A DNA stretch of 64,000 bases. Origin: Alteromonas sp. RKMC-009. GTDB lineage: Bacteria; Pseudomonadota; Gammaproteobacteria; Enterobacterales; Alteromonadaceae. The notes beneath the pieces are model-generated. The model did no database searches, was not told the origin of the DNA, and saw only the letters and a program-made list of their open reading frames with translations. The stretch is taken from the NCBI RefSeq assembly GCF_003584565.2, contig NZ_CP031010.1, positions 1,364,001 to 1,428,000 on the forward strand, written 5' to 3'. Every line of letters starts with the position of its first letter. Within the stretch, counting starts at the first letter, position 1. Made by a program: the position numbers and the translations under genes. This document shows positions 25,501-38,998 of this stretch, piece by piece.

Positions 25501-27021
25501 CTATTCGACTACAACGCGATTTCTGCCGTTCTTTTTCGCCTGATAGAGTAATTCGTCGGCCCGCTCAAACATGGAATGAGGTTCATCGTTCTCACGCAGG
25601 CAGGTACCACCGAATGATGCGGTTATACTGACTTTTTCCTGTTTAAATTTGAAAGGTAAACGGGACAGAGACTCCCGCATGTCATCCAGCTTTTTCTCCA
25701 GCGCTGAGGTTTCGATAAATGGCAGGATCATCACAAACTCCTCACCACCCCAGCGGGAAATAAACTCATCACCGTGAAGCTGTTTTTTCAGGTGATGTCC
25801 CACCACCTGCAAGGTTTTATCACCGGCCTGGTGGCCGAAACGATCATTAATAGATTTGAAAAAGTCGATATCAATCACAGCGAGTGATAACGCACGGTTG
25901 TCATTCAGGGCATCCTCATACTCGCGGTTGAAGCGTTCATTGTAAGCCAGTCTGTTTGGCAGGCGGGTAAGAGGATCAGTATGACTAAATGCAGTCTGCT
26001 CAGCCAGCTTGCGACGGTAAACCTGAGTTTGACGCTGCAGGGTTTCCATTTGCGTTTGCATCGCACTCAGCAAGCCCATCAGTGCCTGCTGTTCCTTATT
26101 GTCTGCCTCTTTCCGGTTAGCCACGGCCGTAGAAATAGACGTAATGTGTGCCTGAGCCTGCGTTTTCAGTTTTTCCAGTGAATCAGAGTCCTGAACGGTC
26201 TGACCCATTTCCGTCAGCTGGCTGGCAATGTCATCCGCACTGGCGTTTCGCGCTTCAAAGGCTTTGCCCGACGAAGCCATACTGGCTTCAACACCTTCCT
26301 GAATCCCGCCTAACGCGTGATGGATACGGTAGATCATACGTCCGGACAGGGTTGCCTCATGCATGGATTCCGTAACTACCAGCCTGATAACGATAATACA
26401 GGTCTGCAGCAGCTCTTCTTCAGAAAGTTGCGATTCCAGTTTCGTGCGCAAATCAACGACCTTCGGTTCATCAGGTTGCTTTTTTGCGTAGCTGTCGATG
26501 AGCTGACTCAGTTCGTTCTGAATTTCTTCAAACAGTGAACCGCTCGTCCGTGCTTCAGGCTTTTTGTGCAATTGGGGAGATGAGCCGGCGTTTTCCTCAA
26601 CGGCTTCGGCAGACACAAGAGAGAACAGTTTGATTGCTTTAAGACACAATGACTGCAGCTGAAACAGGTTATCGACGGGCTGTTGAGCGGCAATCAGTAA
26701 ATGCGCACTTTGCTGACGCAATGTCTTATTCTGCTGAAATGTGCTTTGAAACTGTTTGATCGCCTTTTCAAGTTCTTTAACGGTAAGCTGGGTGTGCTGT
26801 TTCACTGATGTGTCAGCATGCTGGATATGGGTGTTCAGCTTGTTAATACTGACCGTGGCGAGAGTAAAATCAGGCTTCCCGGACAAGTGTCCCCGCAGAA
26901 CCCGCAATTCTTTATCTGTTTCGGCTGACAAACCCTCATAAAAGGAACTTAACCGTATTATGAACTGTACCAGCGTCTCATTATGTGAAGCTAATGAAGA
27001 TAGTTGCTTAGAATCCATCAT
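25501..27021 (-). CDS. GGDEF diguanylate cyclase with long coiled-coil N terminus
   Basis: Makes cyclic di-GMP. About 506 aa: an N-terminal region of roughly 330 residues rich in helices and Gln/Ser/Glu with no recognised sensor or membrane segment, a coiled coil (about 300-345), and a C-terminal GGDEF domain with DPLTRLPNRLAYNERF, DIDFFKSINDRFGHQAGD and the active-site motif as GGEEF. The I-site RxxD is not obvious before GGEEF. Two adjacent ATGs (27021, 27018) follow AAGGAA; the second has better spacing. It lies nine bases upstream of ppnN and probably shares its transcript. Confidence 0.9.
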   Translation of the reverse strand: MMDSKQLSSLASHNETLVQFIIRLSSFYEGLSAETDKELRVLRGHLSGKPDFTLATVSINKLNTHIQHADTSVKQHTQLTVKELEKAIKQFQSTFQQNKTLRQQSAHLLIAAQQPVDNLFQLQSLCLKAIKLFSLVSAEAVEENAGSSPQLHKKPEARTSGSLFEEIQNELSQLIDSYAKKQPDEPKVVDLRTKLESQLSEEELLQTCIIVIRLVVTESMHEATLSGRMIYRIHHALGGIQEGVEASMASSGKAFEARNASADDIASQLTEMGQTVQDSDSLEKLKTQAQAHITSISTAVANRKEADNKEQQALMGLLSAMQTQMETLQRQTQVYRRKLAEQTAFSHTDPLTRLPNRLAYNERFNREYEDALNDNRALSLAVIDIDFFKSINDRFGHQAGDKTLQVVGHHLKKQLHGDEFISRWGGEEFVMILPFIETSALEKKLDDMRESLSRLPFKFKQEKVSITASFGGTCLRENDEPHSMFERADELLYQAKKNGRNRVVVE

Positions 27022-27053
27022 TTTCCTTTGCATACCGGCGGAGTGACCGCCCA

Positions 27054-27893
27054 CTATTGGCGAGCCGAACGGGTGTTTAAACCTGCAGTTTCATAATTCG
27101 ACCGGAACGGATTAATATCCAGTCCTCCCCGTCGGGTATAACGGGCAAAGACAGTAAGTTTTTCCGGCTTACACTGGCTCATAATGTCGCAAAATATTCG
27201 TTCAACGCACTGTTCATGGAATTCATTGTGTTGTCTGAAACCAATTAAATATTTCAGTAACGATGCGTGATCGATTTGTTTTCCGCTGTACCTGATTTGA
27301 ATACTAGCCCAATCTGGCTGATTTGTGATTAAACAATTCGATTTAAGCAGATGACTGACTACTGTTTCGGCAACATCCTGATTTTCTGTAGTTAATAACC
27401 CGCTGTCAGGAGAATATGACGTCACCGTAATATCCAGATCGTCAATCACATGCCCTGACAGTTCTTCCATTCCCAGCGCGTTGAATGCGTCTGGCAGGAT
27501 AACTGTGACATCAACATTTTCTCCGGCACAGGCAGATAGATCTCTGGTCAGGGCGTCCTTTACTGCTTCTGCATCATCAAATTTCGACTGATTAAAGCTG
27601 TTAAGGTAGAGCTTGAAAGATTTAGACTCAATTAATGAAGGAGACGTGACCGGCACTCTGCATTCAAGAATCGCCACACAGGGTTTACCTTTGCTGTTCA
27701 GCCATGACAATTCATAACCGGTCCAAATATCGCAGCCCTGAAAAGGCAGGGTTTCCGCTGATAATGACAGTGTATCTCTGCTCAGGCTGCGTGGTACAGC
27801 TTGCAGCAATGAAGGATTGTAAGACGTTTCATATTCAACCGTTTTTCCAAGGGAAAGATCCGAAGGCACCTTGAAAGGCTTTGGGTTTGTCAT
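27054..27893 (-). CDS. queF: QueF, preQ0 reductase (long form)
   Basis: NADPH-dependent reduction of 7-cyano-7-deazaguanine to preQ1 in queuosine synthesis. The protein from ATG 27893 is 279 aa, close to the 282 aa of E. coli QueF. It has the QueF motif [11 protein letters not shown] at 89-99 and the active-site Cys187 in [18 protein letters not shown]. An upstream extension to 28010 would overlap the syd start region and has no family match. Divergent from syd. Confidence 0.96.
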
Positions 27894-27998: not shown

Positions 27999-28547
27999 AT
28001 GCCCGACCAATTAACACAAAGTTTAGATGCTTTTATTCAGCAATGCCTTACCGCCGGGTCACAAAATCCCGAATTTCTGACGATTGAATTTGATAAAGAC
28101 TGGCCTTCACCGTGTTATTCCCGGAATGCTGAGAATGGTGAAGTGGTAAACTGGCAACCTGTTAAGCAAACAGGCAACAATAACTTTAATGGTCTGGAAG
28201 AGGCGCTGGATATTAAATTACACGCTGATTTTGTTACCTGGTTTACCCGCTACTTCAGCTTTCATATACCGGCAAAAGCGGAGCAGGGCAACTGTGAACT
28301 GCTGCAGGTATGCAGCGATGAAGATTTCGAAAGACTTCAGGAAAATCTCATCGGGCACATTATGATGAAACGTCGCCTGAAACAGCCTGCTACGTTATTC
28401 TTCGCACTCACAGACGACGATGACTACCTGATTTCACTGGACAATAGCACCGGTGAGGTATTGCTGGAGAGAGTTGGCAAACGTGCTGAGCAGGTGCTTG
28501 CCCCTTCAATGGCTGATTTTCTGTCGGCGCTTACCCCGCGCACTTAA
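27999..28547 (+). CDS. syd: Syd, SecY-interacting protein
   Basis: Cytoplasmic protein that binds SecY at the inner membrane and is thought to check SecYEG assembly. The 182-aa length equals E. coli Syd. Recognisable features are the DWPSPCY motif, [24 protein letters not shown] and the acidic C-terminal half. AAGG precedes the ATG by eight bases. It sits divergent to queF as in E. coli, and converges with the next gene with only three bases between the two stops. Confidence 0.94.
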
Positions 28548-28550
28548 TCT

Positions 28551-28841
28551 TTACGCTGTTTTATCACTCAATTGTGCGAGACGTTGTTCAAGTATCGCAA
28601 TAGCCGATTCCATTTCGCTGACACGTTTTTCCAGCGCAGCGACCCGGTCGCCGGCATCTGAAGCTGGTGTTGCCGGCATTTTGCTGCTGGCATTCCAGGC
28701 TTTTATCGCATCGATAGCCTGCGTCACTGAGACTTTGAAAGGAGCCCGCGCGCGCAACAACCCTACGCCGGGCTGCAAACCTTCCTGGTGCATTTTGTGG
28801 CAAAGCATAACGAGCTGTTGTGACTGATCGGCCTGAGACAT
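28551..28841 (-). CDS. Small helical protein with C-terminal coiled coil, possibly DNA-binding
   Basis: 96 aa from the second of two adjacent ATGs, chosen for its spacing to AAGGAA. The N-terminal half (LCHKMHQEGLQPGVGLLRARAPFKVSVTQAIDAIKAW) looks like a small helix-turn-helix similar in pattern to KfrA-type N-terminal domains. The C-terminal half (VAALEKRVSEMESAIAILEQRLAQL) is a clear leucine-heptad coiled coil. DNA binding is inference. A 13-bp palindrome at 28908-28920 in its own upstream region could be a self-operator. Confidence 0.75.
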   Translation of the reverse strand: MSQADQSQQLVMLCHKMHQEGLQPGVGLLRARAPFKVSVTQAIDAIKAWNASSKMPATPASDAGDRVAALEKRVSEMESAIAILEQRLAQLSDKTA

Positions 28842-28907
28842 CATTTTTCCTTACTTCGGTTACTGAGAATACAGAGTTTTCGGGAATAGTATAAAGCACC
28901 AGTTAAT

Positions 28908-29051: not shown

Positions 29052-29411
29052 ATGAAACATCTCATTCTGGCCGCTGCTCTTATTTCACCGTTCACACTCA
29101 CCGGTTGTGTTATCTCTGTAGGCGGAGATGACGGACATTATTCTTCAGACTGGCAGGATCGTGAATACAATAACCGTAAGCATGTTTCGCAGTTAGAAAC
29201 CGGTATGACCTATGAATCGGTTGTCCGCAAAATGGGTGTAGCCGACTTTAACGAAATGCACGATAAGAATGATCACGCTTACCGCGTACTGTTCTACCGT
29301 ACTCAACGCACCATGGATGACGGTGTCACATCTAAAGACGAATGTACGCCTCTGGTATTCCGTGACGGTGTTCTTACGGGCTGGGGTGACGGTGCTTACA
29401 ACCAGCTCTGA
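29052..29411 (+). CDS. DUF3192 lipoprotein
   Basis: A 119-aa lipoprotein: signal peptide with lipobox LTGC (Cys near residue 19), a short linker, then the DUF3192 domain (EYNNRKHVSQLETGMTYESVVRKMG, FYRTQRTMDDGVTSKDECTPLVF, GWGDGAYNQL). It is a paralogue of the membrane-anchored protein at 23667-24041. The LETGMTYESVVRKMG stretch again resembles the BamE fold. AAAGGA stands six bases before the ATG. Function unknown; outer-membrane location is inferred from the lipobox. Confidence 0.9.
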   Translation: MKHLILAAALISPFTLTGCVISVGGDDGHYSSDWQDREYNNRKHVSQLETGMTYESVVRKMGVADFNEMHDKNDHAYRVLFYRTQRTMDDGVTSKDECTPLVFRDGVLTGWGDGAYNQL

Positions 29412-29546: not shown

Positions 29547-30194
29547 ATGAATACCGTTCTTGAGTCAGATGTACATATCGAAGACGTGCGTGCAGTATTC
29601 CTTACTGCCGACAATCTGAAAGTAGCCGCTTCCATTCTTTATAACGCCTATCATGATGATCCTCTGTTCATGGACATCTTTCAGGCAGAAAAAGAAGGCT
29701 ATGAAGGCCGTCTGCGTAGTGCCATCAGAGAAGAGCTGGATGCCTTCTGGGATGCAGGTCAACCTATGATAGGGTTGTTCGAAGACAGTCGCTTGCTGGC
29801 TGTCACTTGTCTGACGAAACCCGGCAGCAGCTTTTCCAGCGGGCGTTTCTGGCACTGGCGATTGAAAATGCTGCTGACAGCAGGCTATTTCAGTACCCGT
29901 GCTATGGTTGAGAAAGAAGAGAAGATCCGTAGTGCAATGCCCGCTGAACATTATCATATGGTGTCTTTTATTGCCGTCCATCCGGACCATCAGCATCATG
30001 GTCTGGGTCATGTATTAATGGGGGCGATAGACAGTATCGTAAATGAAGACTCATCCAGCGAAGGGGTGGGCGTTTTTGTGAGCTTGCCCAAATACCTGAA
30101 GTTCTTCAGAAGCGGGTTCTATCAACAGATCTCGGTGATCACAGTGTCTGACGTTACCGGAGAGATCCTCTTTAAGCCGAAGCCGCTGGTCTGA
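29547..30194 (+). CDS. GNAT family N-acetyltransferase
   Basis: A 215-aa acetyl-CoA dependent acyltransferase of unknown substrate. The acetyl-CoA-binding motif A appears as FIAVHPDHQHHGLGHVLMGAI, with a usual Q/R-x-x-G-x-G/A arrangement in DHQHHGLGHVL. Motif B includes GVFVSLPKYLKFFRSGFYQ. AGGAGA precedes the ATG. It is a single gene closed by a terminator directly upstream of the CsrB regulatory region. The substrate cannot be inferred. Confidence 0.88.
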   Translation: MNTVLESDVHIEDVRAVFLTADNLKVAASILYNAYHDDPLFMDIFQAEKEGYEGRLRSAIREELDAFWDAGQPMIGLFEDSRLLAVTCLTKPGSSFSSGRFWHWRLKMLLTAGYFSTRAMVEKEEKIRSAMPAEHYHMVSFIAVHPDHQHHGLGHVLMGAIDSIVNEDSSSEGVGVFVSLPKYLKFFRSGFYQQISVITVSDVTGEILFKPKPLV

Positions 30195-30314: not shown

Positions 30315-30332
30315 TGTAAGACATGTCTTACA
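30315..30332 (+). promoter_or_regulatory. GacA/UvrY binding site (perfect TGTAAG-N6-CTTACA)
   Basis: TGTAAGACATGTCTTACA is an exact match to the 18-bp upstream activating sequence bound by the GacA/UvrY response regulator. Its centre is about 178 bases upstream of the proposed start of the CsrB-type RNA, close to the spacing known for csrB promoters in other gammaproteobacteria. Confidence 0.9.
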
Positions 30333-30501
30333 AAAGTGTAGGACTTTGAAGTTTTTTTTATGACGTTTTTATTATACCAAAGTATAAAGTTGCTGTTTTT
30401 GTTAGACTTTTTGCTAATGCCGCTAATGACAGATTTATGACGGTGAAAATAATTGAAAAAAGCATGTAGCACAGATCTACAGGATCAGTACTATTAATCA
30501 T

Positions 30502-31036
30502 GTCACAGGGAAACACGACGAGTCAGGGATGAACTTTACGACACTCATGGATGAACTGCGGACAACCGAAGGAACGGAATACTGACTCAGGAAGAGCCAG
30601 TTTTCAGGAGAACGGAAAAGGGATACGGTCAGGATGACCGTCAGGGACAACTTCAGGATGAAGAATACCACGGGGATTGTGGTCAAAAGGACATTGGAAG
30701 CGCGAAGGAAAGCGCATCAGGGACAACCTCAGGAACGGGGATTACCACTGCACGGATGAGTGGTTAATATGGATTAAGGGATAAGGATAGCGTTCATGAT
30801 GAACGCAATGGACAACTTCAGGGATTGAAGAATGCTGCACGAAGGATGTGTAGTTACTACAGGAAAAATGGAAAGGGATCCGCTCACGGAACAGAGTGGC
30901 CTGCTCAGGATGACGCAGGAAAAGAAGGAAAGGGGCGCATACGGATTTTTACTGGACGGTGAAAGTTGCAATGGATCGCAGAGAAGGACGCTCAAAATTC
31001 AGAAAAAGCGATAGCGTCGGGCTATCGCTTTTTTTG
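30502..31036 (+). ncRNA. csrB: CsrB-family regulatory RNA (CsrA sponge)
   Basis: About 535 nt with no supported ORF and roughly 38 GGA triplets by hand count, many as AGGA or CAGGATG. Several GGA motifs lie in hairpin loops exactly as in CsrB: ACGGTC-AGGAT-GACCGT (30625-30641), CTTC-AGGAT-GAAG (30651-30663), CCAC/GTGG around GGGGATT (30668-30682), GCGC/GCGC around GAAGGAAA (30700-30715). The RNA would sequester CsrA and is expected to be induced by the BarA-UvrY (GacS-GacA) system through the upstream site. It ends at a strong terminator. The 5' end is inferred from resemblance of GTCACAGGGA to the E. coli CsrB start and a TATTAA -10-like box at 30492. Position between syd and yqcC agrees with the E. 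coli csrB locus as I recall it. Confidence 0.93.
31003..31036. terminator. Bidirectional intrinsic terminator, CsrB RNA and DUF3549-DUF3301 operon
   Basis: A 13-base stem AAAAAGCGATAGC / GCTATCGCTTTTT with a five-base loop. A-tract and T-tract on both sides allow termination of the sRNA (+) and of the convergent DUF3301 gene (-). Confidence 0.93.
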
Positions 31037-31041
31037 CGTTT

Positions 31042-31344
31042 TTATACGCGGTAAGGCGGTAATTGCGTTCTGAGTACCCGTTTTCCCACCATTTCCATTT
31101 CTCCTGTATATCTGTCTTCTCCGTTTCCGGAAAATTCAAACTCAAATCGTGAATGCCAGTCTGGCTTAGCATATTTGAAAGTCAGTCGTGTGGAGCGACG
31201 GGCCAGTGTCAGCAACTGGAGATGATGCGTGTCGCAGTACAGGCGCGCGTGTTCGAATGCCGCCTCTGAAATGCTGCGTATCCGCCAGAACTGAAAGCCC
31301 GCAAATCCAATCAGCAGAAATAAAGTTAATTCACCTAAAGTCAT
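31042..31344 (-). CDS. DUF3301 small membrane protein
   Basis: A 100-aa protein with an N-terminal membrane helix (TLFLLIGFAGFQFW) and a DUF3301 domain: FEHARLYCDTHHLQLLTLARRSTRL, followed by RFEFEFSGNGEDRYTGEMEMVGKRV. Four bases separate it from the DUF3549 gene upstream, so they form one operon. The family is widespread in Vibrio, Shewanella and Alteromonas next to yqcC and truC. Function is unknown. Confidence 0.88.
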   Translation of the reverse strand: MTLGELTLFLLIGFAGFQFWRIRSISEAAFEHARLYCDTHHLQLLTLARRSTRLTFKYAKPDWHSRFEFEFSGNGEDRYTGEMEMVGKRVLRTQLPPYRV

Positions 31345-31348
31345 TTGT

Positions 31349-32401
31349 TTACTGCTTCTGTGCCTGGTTAAACAACCGCCCGAAGGCCAGTTTCAGCTTT
31401 TCGCTGCACGTATCCGTTCTCAACAGGGTCAGTACCTGTAATCTGAGCACCGGTAACTGAACCAGGTCAGAGAAAAAACCGCCAAATACTGCGCCTTGCC
31501 TGTTTTCTTTATCATCCATAGCGGCAGCATTTTCAAAAAAGCGAACAAGAAGGGTTTCATCGAGCTGTGCATAGTGGCGGCCGGCAATCACGCTGAGCAG
31601 ATGAATATCAGCCTGTTCCCCGTTCAGTAAATCTTTCAACAGTGCCGTGACAGTTTTATCTGCTGTTTCGCTGGCCAGTGCCCGCAATGCGGCCAGACCC
31701 GTTACCGGGTTCTCAATCAGCGTTTCCTGACAGTAAACGGCGATGGCCTGTTTCAATGTTGGTGCCAGGTCGACGGGTTCGCAACTCTCCATCAGTGTCT
31801 TGACAAAATCCTGCTGAAAAAGTGACAGGTTAGTTATTACAGCGGTGACCGCGTCATCTGATGTCAGCGTAGTAGCATAATCGGCAATGGCCTGTACAGA
31901 GAGTTCCCGCCAGTCACTGACTGCCGGGGCTTTTACATACTGCGCAACTTTATCTGTGCCCGGCGCCGCCGGCAGGCCGAGCATATTTCGGGTCAGGGCG
32001 TTGAACTGCGCCATCTGCGACTGTACCGGCACAAAAGAGTAAGGATTATCCGGCAATGTATCCTGCTTTTCATTTTCCGGACTGCTACCGAGCACATCGA
32101 CAATAATTTGCAAAAAATGATTACGGGCGGCCATGACCAGTAAACCCCGCTCATCAACCGGGAACTTCAGAAACCAGATATAATGATGTTTTACCGGCTT
32201 GCCCGACCAGAAAACAATGCCAAACCAGGCGTGTTGCTGGCGTGGTCTGGGGCAGGGGCGCATGCCGCTTTCCATCTCAAGGAATTGCTGCGTGTCCAGA
32301 GGGTGTACACCGCGGCCTAAATCAAACAATTGAAAGTCCGTTCCTGCGTGAAGCAGAAATTCGCTGAGTGTTTGAATAGATTGGGCTGACTGACCGGACA
32401 T
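31349..32401 (-). CDS. DUF3549 protein
   Basis: 350 aa from ATG 32401, chosen because GGAG lies nine bases upstream; a GTG at 32416 would add five residues. The N terminus (IQTLSEFLLHAGTDFQLFDLGRGVHPLDTQQFLEME) and the segment PRQQHAWFGIVFW are, to my recollection, conserved in DUF3549. The C-terminal half is helical, HEAT-like in pattern. No catalytic motif seen. Operon with DUF3301, divergent from yqcC. Function unknown. Confidence 0.85.
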   Translation of the reverse strand: MSGQSAQSIQTLSEFLLHAGTDFQLFDLGRGVHPLDTQQFLEMESGMRPCPRPRQQHAWFGIVFWSGKPVKHHYIWFLKFPVDERGLLVMAARNHFLQIIVDVLGSSPENEKQDTLPDNPYSFVPVQSQMAQFNALTRNMLGLPAAPGTDKVAQYVKAPAVSDWRELSVQAIADYATTLTSDDAVTAVITNLSLFQQDFVKTLMESCEPVDLAPTLKQAIAVYCQETLIENPVTGLAALRALASETADKTVTALLKDLLNGEQADIHLLSVIAGRHYAQLDETLLVRFFENAAAMDDKENRQGAVFGGFFSDLVQLPVLRLQVLTLLRTDTCSEKLKLAFGRLFNQAQKQ

Positions 32402-32510
32402 ACTGAACTGCTCCACCTGAAAACAAAGGCGGTATGATAACGGTGTGCCGGGGCTTTTACTACCGTAACAGTGACTCTATAATGGCCGCTTTTCATCATA
32501 AAGAGCCGTT

Positions 32511-32822
32511 ATGTCACAGGTTGAACACATTGGTCTGTTACTGAAAGATTTGGAAACAGTCCTTAAAGCTGGTGGCTACTGGTCGTCAACAGCACCGGCG
32601 CCGGAAGCGTTGCAAAGTACGCAGCCCTTCGCCCGCGATACGCTGGCCTTTGAAGCATGGCTGCAATTTATTTTTATTCCCCGTTTTCAGCAATTAATCG
32701 CGGAAGGACAATCTTTACCCGCCAATATGGCTTTACTGCCTATAGCCCAGATTGCGTTGCCGGGCGAGTTAGATTTGCATCTGGTGCTGCAGCAACTTGA
32801 CGAGGTTGTTTGTGGTGAGTGA
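32511..32822 (+). CDS. yqcC: YqcC (DUF446) protein
   Basis: A 103-aa all-helical protein of the YqcC family: LKDLETVLKAGGYWSSTAPAPEALQSTQPFARDTLAFEAWLQFIFIPRFQQLI is the diagnostic region. The function is unknown; the family is tied by gene order to the tRNA pseudouridine synthase TruC, whose start overlaps its last codons here. The syd-csrB-yqcC-truC order is shared with E. coli apart from inserted genes. Confidence 0.93.
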   Translation: MSQVEHIGLLLKDLETVLKAGGYWSSTAPAPEALQSTQPFARDTLAFEAWLQFIFIPRFQQLIAEGQSLPANMALLPIAQIALPGELDLHLVLQQLDEVVCGE

Positions 32823-38594: not shown

Positions 38595-38998
38595 TGTACC
38601 CTCGATTATTGATAACAGAGAAAACGGGAATGCGCCGGGAATGTGTTTAGTCTGATGATATACCTGACTCAGGTATTTGAAGTTATCACAAATTAAAACG
38701 GCAGGCGCATGATTGCTATTATGGTAACGTCTGACAGCGCAACTGTATAGTCATCCTGCATTTTGACAGCCTCAGATGACGTTAAAACTTGAGCATGGGG
38801 GCCTGTTGTGGTATAAAGCGCCCGCGTTTTGTGAGAGTCGGAAAAACACTGTTTATCCGGACCGCAATATTCGTAAATTAACTTTTTAAATAACACACAT
38901 ATACCGACACTTGTCATCGGGGTGTCTGCAAGGACTTCACAGACCGCGCGGATCGATGGAAGGGGTATATGGAGGCCTAACCCCAAGAGGAAAATATC
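38595..38998 (+). promoter_or_regulatory. Divergent map/rpsB region including the S2 (rpsB) mRNA leader
   Basis: About 400 bases without a supported gene. The rpsB promoter is at 38789-38817 (separate entry). The transcript would carry a leader of about 175 nt. Near the ribosome binding site it can fold GGGGT / ACCCC (38963-38985) and a CCGA/TCGG hairpin around 38912-38928. In gammaproteobacteria the rpsB leader is a known site of autogenous repression by ribosomal protein S2; the length and position here fit that, but the exact fold was not modelled. Confidence 0.6.
38789..38817 (+). promoter_or_regulatory. rpsB promoter (sigma-70) with GC-rich discriminator
   Basis: TTGAGC (38789-38794), a 17-base spacer and TATAAA (38812-38817), followed directly by GCGCCCGCG. 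A GC-rich discriminator is the feature expected of stringently controlled translation genes. Confidence 0.75.

Follow-up and report, generated by a model that had tools for sequence, protein, structure and literature searches.

The locus between syd and yqcC

What is the GGA-rich tract that lies, on the plus strand, between a GNAT acetyltransferase gene and a convergent DUF3301 gene in Alteromonas sp. RKMC-009? The tract opens with a conserved GUCACAGGGAAACACGACGAGUCAGG at position 30502 of the 64-kb stretch of DNA analysed here (the window), and we consider it almost certain that it is the orthologue of E. coli csrB, predicted to specify a UvrY-driven CsrA sponge of about 534 nt. We make this assignment because of synteny, the UvrY box and its spacing, a sub-threshold match to RF00018, covarying GGA hairpins and the CsrA and UvrY genes of the genome.

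The gene order in E. coli K-12 is queF-syd-csrB-yqcC-truC-yqcA. In the window it is queF, syd, DUF3192, GNAT, the RNA, DUF3301, DUF3549, yqcC, a pseudouridine synthase gene and a flavodoxin gene, so that the RNA lies between syd and yqcC with DUF3192, GNAT, DUF3301 and DUF3549 intervening. An earlier note on this DNA had recognised the syd-yqcC location of E. coli csrB, with extra genes inserted, and the Pfam assignments of the neighbours agree:

27999..28547, plus strand: syd (PF07348)
28551-28844, minus strand: 97-aa frame between syd and the DUF3192 gene
29052..29411, plus strand: DUF3192 gene, extra relative to E. coli (PF11399)
29547..30194, plus strand: GNAT acetyltransferase gene, extra relative to E. 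coli (PF00583, barely above cut-off)
31042..31344, minus strand: DUF3301 gene, convergent with the RNA (PF11743)
31349..32416, minus strand: DUF3549 gene (PF12069)
32511..32822, plus strand: yqcC (PF04287)

The c-di-GMP synthesis gene that the same note had placed nearby is also real, being a diguanylate cyclase gene at 25501-27054 (minus strand). The nearest named relatives of the DUF3301 protein are those of Alteromonas confluentis (88% identity) and Alteromonas sp. C1M14 (81%). A t44 RNA (RF00127) at 38876-38981 (plus strand, 72.1 bits) is the sole Rfam match above gathering score in the window. The parts of the RNA gene and of its upstream region are as follows:

30315..30332, no strand assigned: predicted UvrY/GacA binding site, exact sequence match to the consensus TGTAAGN6CTTACA
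30337..30345, plus strand: partial half-site TGTAGGACT, 4 bp beyond the box, to be compared with TGTAGGAGA 5 bp beyond the E. coli csrB box
30489..30494, plus strand: putative -10 hexamer TACTAT, with a similar -10-like stretch in relatives
30502..31035, plus strand: CsrB-type RNA, 534 nt with 38 GGA, its probable start placed by the conserved GUCAC end and the E. coli spacing
30502..30528, plus strand: conserved 5′ end GUCACAGGGAAACACGACGAGUCAGGG
30529..30869, plus strand: middle part, variable in length among the RNAs of the genus
30870..31035, plus strand: conserved 3′ domain (about 165 nt), which comprises GGA-loop hairpins and the terminator, defined by alignment and covariation and modelled as R1
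31003..31035, plus strand: intrinsic terminator found by terminator scan, with a 13-pair stem and two-sided changes at 8 pairs
within the tract, plus strand: open frame of 60 aa

Between the conserved start GUCACAGGG at 30502 and the final T of the terminator at 31035, a scripted count gives 534 nt and 38 GGA triplets, close to the roughly 535 nt and 38 triplets counted by hand in the earlier note; the tract it had described is real, although the RNA ends at 31035 and not at 31036. Such a number of GGA exceeds all of 1000 dinucleotide shuffles of the 534 nt (23.8±3.0, maximum 33) and all of 1000 mononucleotide shuffles (17.1±3.1, maximum 28). Sliding 540-nt stretches along the plus strand of the window contain 7.3 GGA on average (sd 3.8) and reach their maximum of 39 at the csrB tract, with part of the leader included, and the maximum on the minus strand is 19. 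Within the middle part, stretches opening with GGACAACYUC start at 30645, 30721 and 30810.

UvrY box, RNA structure and Csr regulators

The 18-bp box reads TGTAAGACATGTCTTACA, and no second exact match to the consensus occurs in the 5.0 Mb genome. The box is centred at -178 relative to the RNA start, which bears out the previous proposal of an exact GacA consensus about 178 bp upstream. Inexact matches would be meaningless alone, because with up to one mismatch the pattern finds 5 sites per strand in the whole genome and a reversed control pattern finds 7. In E. coli, the UvrY site of csrB is reported to be an inverted repeat of 18 bp whose centre lies at -183/-182, and TGTAGGAGA follows it after another 5 bp (PMC4682653); the script used on the window RNA puts the centre of that box at -182. 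Throughout the genus, the best upstream box of all 74 RNAs measured scores 10-12 of 12, with its centre at -166 to -180, and at -177 or -178 in 63 of them. The additional half-site is weakly conserved, as a loose pattern for it fits 42 of the 74. Regarding the promoter, we found no convincing -35 upstream of the putative TACTAT, and a sigma-70 scan returned 2 sites, neither of them this hexamer, against 1.2±1.4 in shuffles.

The covariance model RF00018 (CsrB) matches 30582-30953 with 33.8 bits (E 1.9e-7), the sole RF00018 match in the genome. The covariance search proposed in the earlier note thus yields a match, but at a score below the 71-bit gathering score that Rfam sets for CsrB membership. 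In the minimum-energy fold of the window RNA, 13 of the 15 hairpin loops contain GGA and 24 of the 38 GGA are wholly unpaired. The many GGA triplets, largely in hairpin loops, are those expected of a CsrA sponge of the CsrB/RsmZ type, as are the conserved RNA structure, the upstream UvrY/GacA box and the intrinsic terminator.

Evidence for conservation of the structure comes from 37 3′-domain sequences of 28 genomes of the genus, on which RNAalifold predicts five helices. In these sequences, 97.4% of the cells are paired; column shuffles give 85.8±0.5 and slid controls 41-52%. These figures are to be read with the fact that the structure was drawn from the same sequences and is thereby favoured over its slid versions, and that related sequences can exceed shuffles. 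Two-sided changes occur at 17 of 28 pairs and in 153 cells, against 44.2±9.1 in shuffles. GGA occupies the loop of two helices, in 35 and 29 of the 37 sequences respectively, and 9 of the 10 pairs of these helices show two-sided changes. Over the full length, compared in seven relatives, 88 pairs are predicted and 33 of them show such a change, a figure that stands without a shuffle control.

Could the tract instead be a protein-coding stretch, or simply reflect a purine-rich bias? It does contain open frames, of 60 aa on the plus strand and of 62 and 73 aa on the minus strand. However, the longest plus-strand frame varies from 22 to 108 aa over the 74 RNAs of the genus, at offsets that shift even between nearest relatives, and no frame conserved in place was seen across them; together with the compensatory base changes, the terminator and the UvrY box, this leaves such an explanation barely conceivable. 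The low Rfam score might rather suggest that the strain retains only a decayed or inactive relic of csrB. Against it speak the exact box, the intact 5′ end, the terminator and a 3′ domain scoring 167.8 bits with R1 (a model whose source sequences include it), as well as the fact that this RNA is the only copy found in the genome, and we regard a relic as very improbable. The two antisense frames, at 30498-30686 and 30774-30995, lie inside or overlap the RNA gene and are a possible source of spurious gene calls at the locus.

A functional csrB orthologue would need its partners, and the genome encodes both CsrA, in a single gene, and UvrY (321.7 bits against a family cut-off of 280). The best BarA match reaches 585.5 bits, with a family cut-off of 890, and covers profile positions 247-918 of 920; BarA is thus likely, though not proven, to be encoded. 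GAPES4 (PF17157), which we take to be the sensor domain of E. coli CsrD, has no match in the whole genome, and E. coli was matched in the same search. As a lead only, CsrD-dependent decay may be absent in this organism.

Does the genome contain a second Csr RNA? RF00018 and blastn with the window RNA each gave one match, and R1 gave one strong match (167.8 bits) and three others of 26-29 bits. Only one of the weak matches (C1:2686309-2686443) spans the model, and with 4 GGA it was discarded; the remaining two start at model position 132 or 135 and run to 170, which corresponds to the terminator. The 3-kb loci around the four one-mismatch UvrY boxes contain at most 10 GGA per 300 nt. A short sibling RNA of another type could conceivably still be encoded.

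Combining these elements, a model of the switch can be proposed. BarA-phosphorylated UvrY would bind the box at -178 and activate, from the RNA's own promoter, an untranslated transcript of about 534 nt. Its loops and linkers would display up to 38 GGA sites, so that several CsrA dimers could be bound at once, and the sequestration of CsrA on the RNA would free CsrA-repressed mRNAs. A sponge of this size would be expected to titrate CsrA strongly.

Long and short forms in the genus

At least one such CsrB-type RNA is found in all 59 genomes analysed from the genus, and the DUF3549 neighbour is likewise present in the 59. R1 matches every genome, by construction in the 28 that supplied its sequences, blastn with the window RNA matches 53, and RF00018, under stricter filters, matches 21 with none above cut-off. 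The DUF3549 match is split in two pieces at one locus (L122, in G035) and single in the other 58 genomes. A contig end lies near the RNA locus in six draft genomes (L085, L102, L106, L114, L117 and L118), three of the short-copy clade described below and three others.

The RNAs range from 331 to 835 nt and from 20 to 53 GGA, at a near constant density of 5.7-7.9 GGA per 100 nt. Two designs can be distinguished. In 47 genomes there is one long RNA (387-835 nt, 28-53 GGA), while a clade of 12 genomes carries two or three short ones each (331-446 nt, 20-29 GGA; 27 measured). Above 90 bits, R1 has two or three matches per genome in the clade, 29 in total, and exactly one in every one of the other 47 genomes; counting by start motif and box undercounts relative to R1, with 2 copies instead of 3 in G044 and 1 instead of 2 in G023. 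In a tree of DUF3301, DUF3549 and YqcC, the 12-genome clade has a support of 1.0 and the other 47 group together with 0.30. As the contrast is a single one and the deep branches are weakly supported, we do not present any direction of change between the forms as proven. The short-copy genomes (L112, L105, L121, L110, L113, L115, L109 and others of the clade) contain two RNA types that differ in the 3′ domain, one window-like and one with a GCGTGC stretch, several of the latter lacking GGA in the second hairpin loop.

Compared with the 47 long RNAs, the window RNA has a length slightly below the median, 18 being shorter and 17 having fewer GGA. The largest, in G009 (L069:2886-3720, minus strand), has 835 nt and 53 GGA, its box at -178 and one terminator on the RNA strand. 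In G042, probably the type strain of A. macleodii, the RNA measures 635 nt and contains 48 GGA. Where does the additional length reside? Neither the 5′ end (27 nt) nor the 3′ domain (about 165 nt) varies much, and the length upstream of the 3′ anchor tracks the total (r 0.99; 71 of the 74 RNAs, those with the anchor), so that the extra length is in the middle part. Growth by one repeated module of the GGACAACYUC type was rejected, as motif count and length correlate poorly over the 74 RNAs (Spearman 0.195, p 0.096); growth of the middle part in general holds.

Summed over each genome, the GGA number 28-53 where there is a single copy (47 genomes) and 41-79 where there are several (11 of the 12 genomes, G023 being omitted for its broken contigs). 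This contrast of copy number with length opposes one clade to the rest and so does not amount to a statistical test. Against strict compensation of copy number by length speak other genera of the family, where 18 of 22 loci have a GGA-dense tract of 310-410 nt with 18-26 GGA and a single strong R1 match per genome (strict filters, 14 candidates scored per genome). The four larger loci are those of G139 (630 nt, 47 GGA), of two genomes of genus g33 (about 475 nt, 31-32 GGA) and of G151 (660 nt, 39 GGA), the last with an internal terminator and perhaps consisting of two RNAs; outside the genus, spans refer to GGA-dense tracts only. In other families of the order, most loci have 11-25 GGA and a few are larger, for example that of G067 (about 490 nt, 33 GGA), and several genomes show two to six RF00018 matches.

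The window RNA is thus ordinary in kind and notable in size when compared with E. coli, enlarged in the manner of its lineage. It shares with E. coli CsrB (RF00018) the syd-yqcC locus, a UvrY box near -180, a similar 5′ end, GGA hairpin loops and a terminator, but CsrB is 369 nt long with 22 GGA by the same script, which agrees with the earlier claim of a higher GGA content here and would give the window RNA a larger capacity per molecule, and the window has extra flanking genes. E. coli is reported to have CsrC besides CsrB (PMC4682653). The two Shewanella oneidensis RNAs CsrB1 and CsrB2 also have UvrY boxes and are described as UvrY-dependent, but they are shorter copies of 420 and 421 bp that flank a transposase gene (PMC3171408). 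Pf1 of Pseudoalteromonas fuliginea is also of Csr type and has a GacA site; when studied in E. coli it is reported to affect glycogen. It has about 21 GGA, and its reported database matches are all from Pseudoalteromonas (PMC9927453). The Vibrio CsrB1-4 RNAs belong to the CsrB family and have sites for VarA, which is of UvrY type, though they are reported in two to four copies per genome, as opposed to one in the genome of the window (PMC6262261). In the literature searched, mostly outside subscription journals, we found neither the long single-copy form nor the division into long and short forms described.

One long RNA, several short RNAs and Aln1a-c

The interval from Te101_04650 to Te101_04655 of A. 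macleodii Te101 is reported to encode three very abundant Csr-type RNAs, Aln1a-c, whose three start sites fall within 404 bp of intergenic DNA; csrA (Te101_05290) lies 127 locus-tag steps of five beyond Aln1, and a mean of 77% is given for the identity of Aln1 from A. macleodii with that from A. mediterranea (PMC5864184). The words syd, UvrY and GacA are absent from the main text of that article. Between csrB and csrA of G042 lie 127, 129, 135 or 144 candidate genes, depending on whether the minimum length is set at 100, 90, 70 or 50 aa, and csrB is the only tract with at least 13 GGA per 300 nt in 180 kb; the RNA identity between G042 and G013 is 82.5%. Because strains differ in their islands, this gene count is support and not proof. 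It is likely, though not proven, that Aln1a-c map to the csrB locus and are parts of one long CsrB.

These RNAs and that of the window come from the same genus, are of Csr type and probably share a locus, but Aln1a-c were published as three RNAs and a single one of 534 nt is predicted here. Is the locus then a set of several short Csr RNAs transcribed from internal promoters, as proposed for Aln1a-c? The three start sites of Te101 (PMC5864184) would favour such an arrangement, and the gene count (127-144 against 127 tag steps) and the lone GGA-dense tract in 180 kb place the Te101 region near the csrB locus. Nevertheless, in the window, G042 and G009 alike, the scan of the RNA strand detects one terminator only, that at the 3′ end, and each RNA of the genus has one start motif and one box, except that of G047, which contains a second start motif. 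Besides, internal starts in a very abundant RNA could equal processed ends, and the 404-bp interval does not fit the gap of about 1 kb in G042, unless a spurious frame was annotated there; a 120-aa antisense frame is present in this gap and might have been annotated. We therefore consider several short RNAs unlikely, and one long sponge remains our preferred reading.

More tentatively, and with less than even confidence, we suggest that the Alteromonas sponge has moved between two designs, several short siblings or a single RNA whose middle part has expanded, bringing it up to 53 GGA, and that Aln1a-c represent one such long CsrB. If true, the long form would swap siblings for extra sites per molecule, so that separate control of siblings would be lost and a single UvrY-driven switch would remain. 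For a genus of marine copiotrophs, the results expose an annotation gap, since RF00018 exceeds its cut-off in none of the 59 genomes though the RNA is in each, and they probably tie the very abundant Aln1 RNAs to the conserved csrB locus and to UvrY. Of greatest interest is the length series across the genus, with its split between one long and several short RNAs: with 20 to 53 GGA per RNA and one to three copies, it constitutes a natural series in which sponge size and copy number can be tested against CsrA titration.
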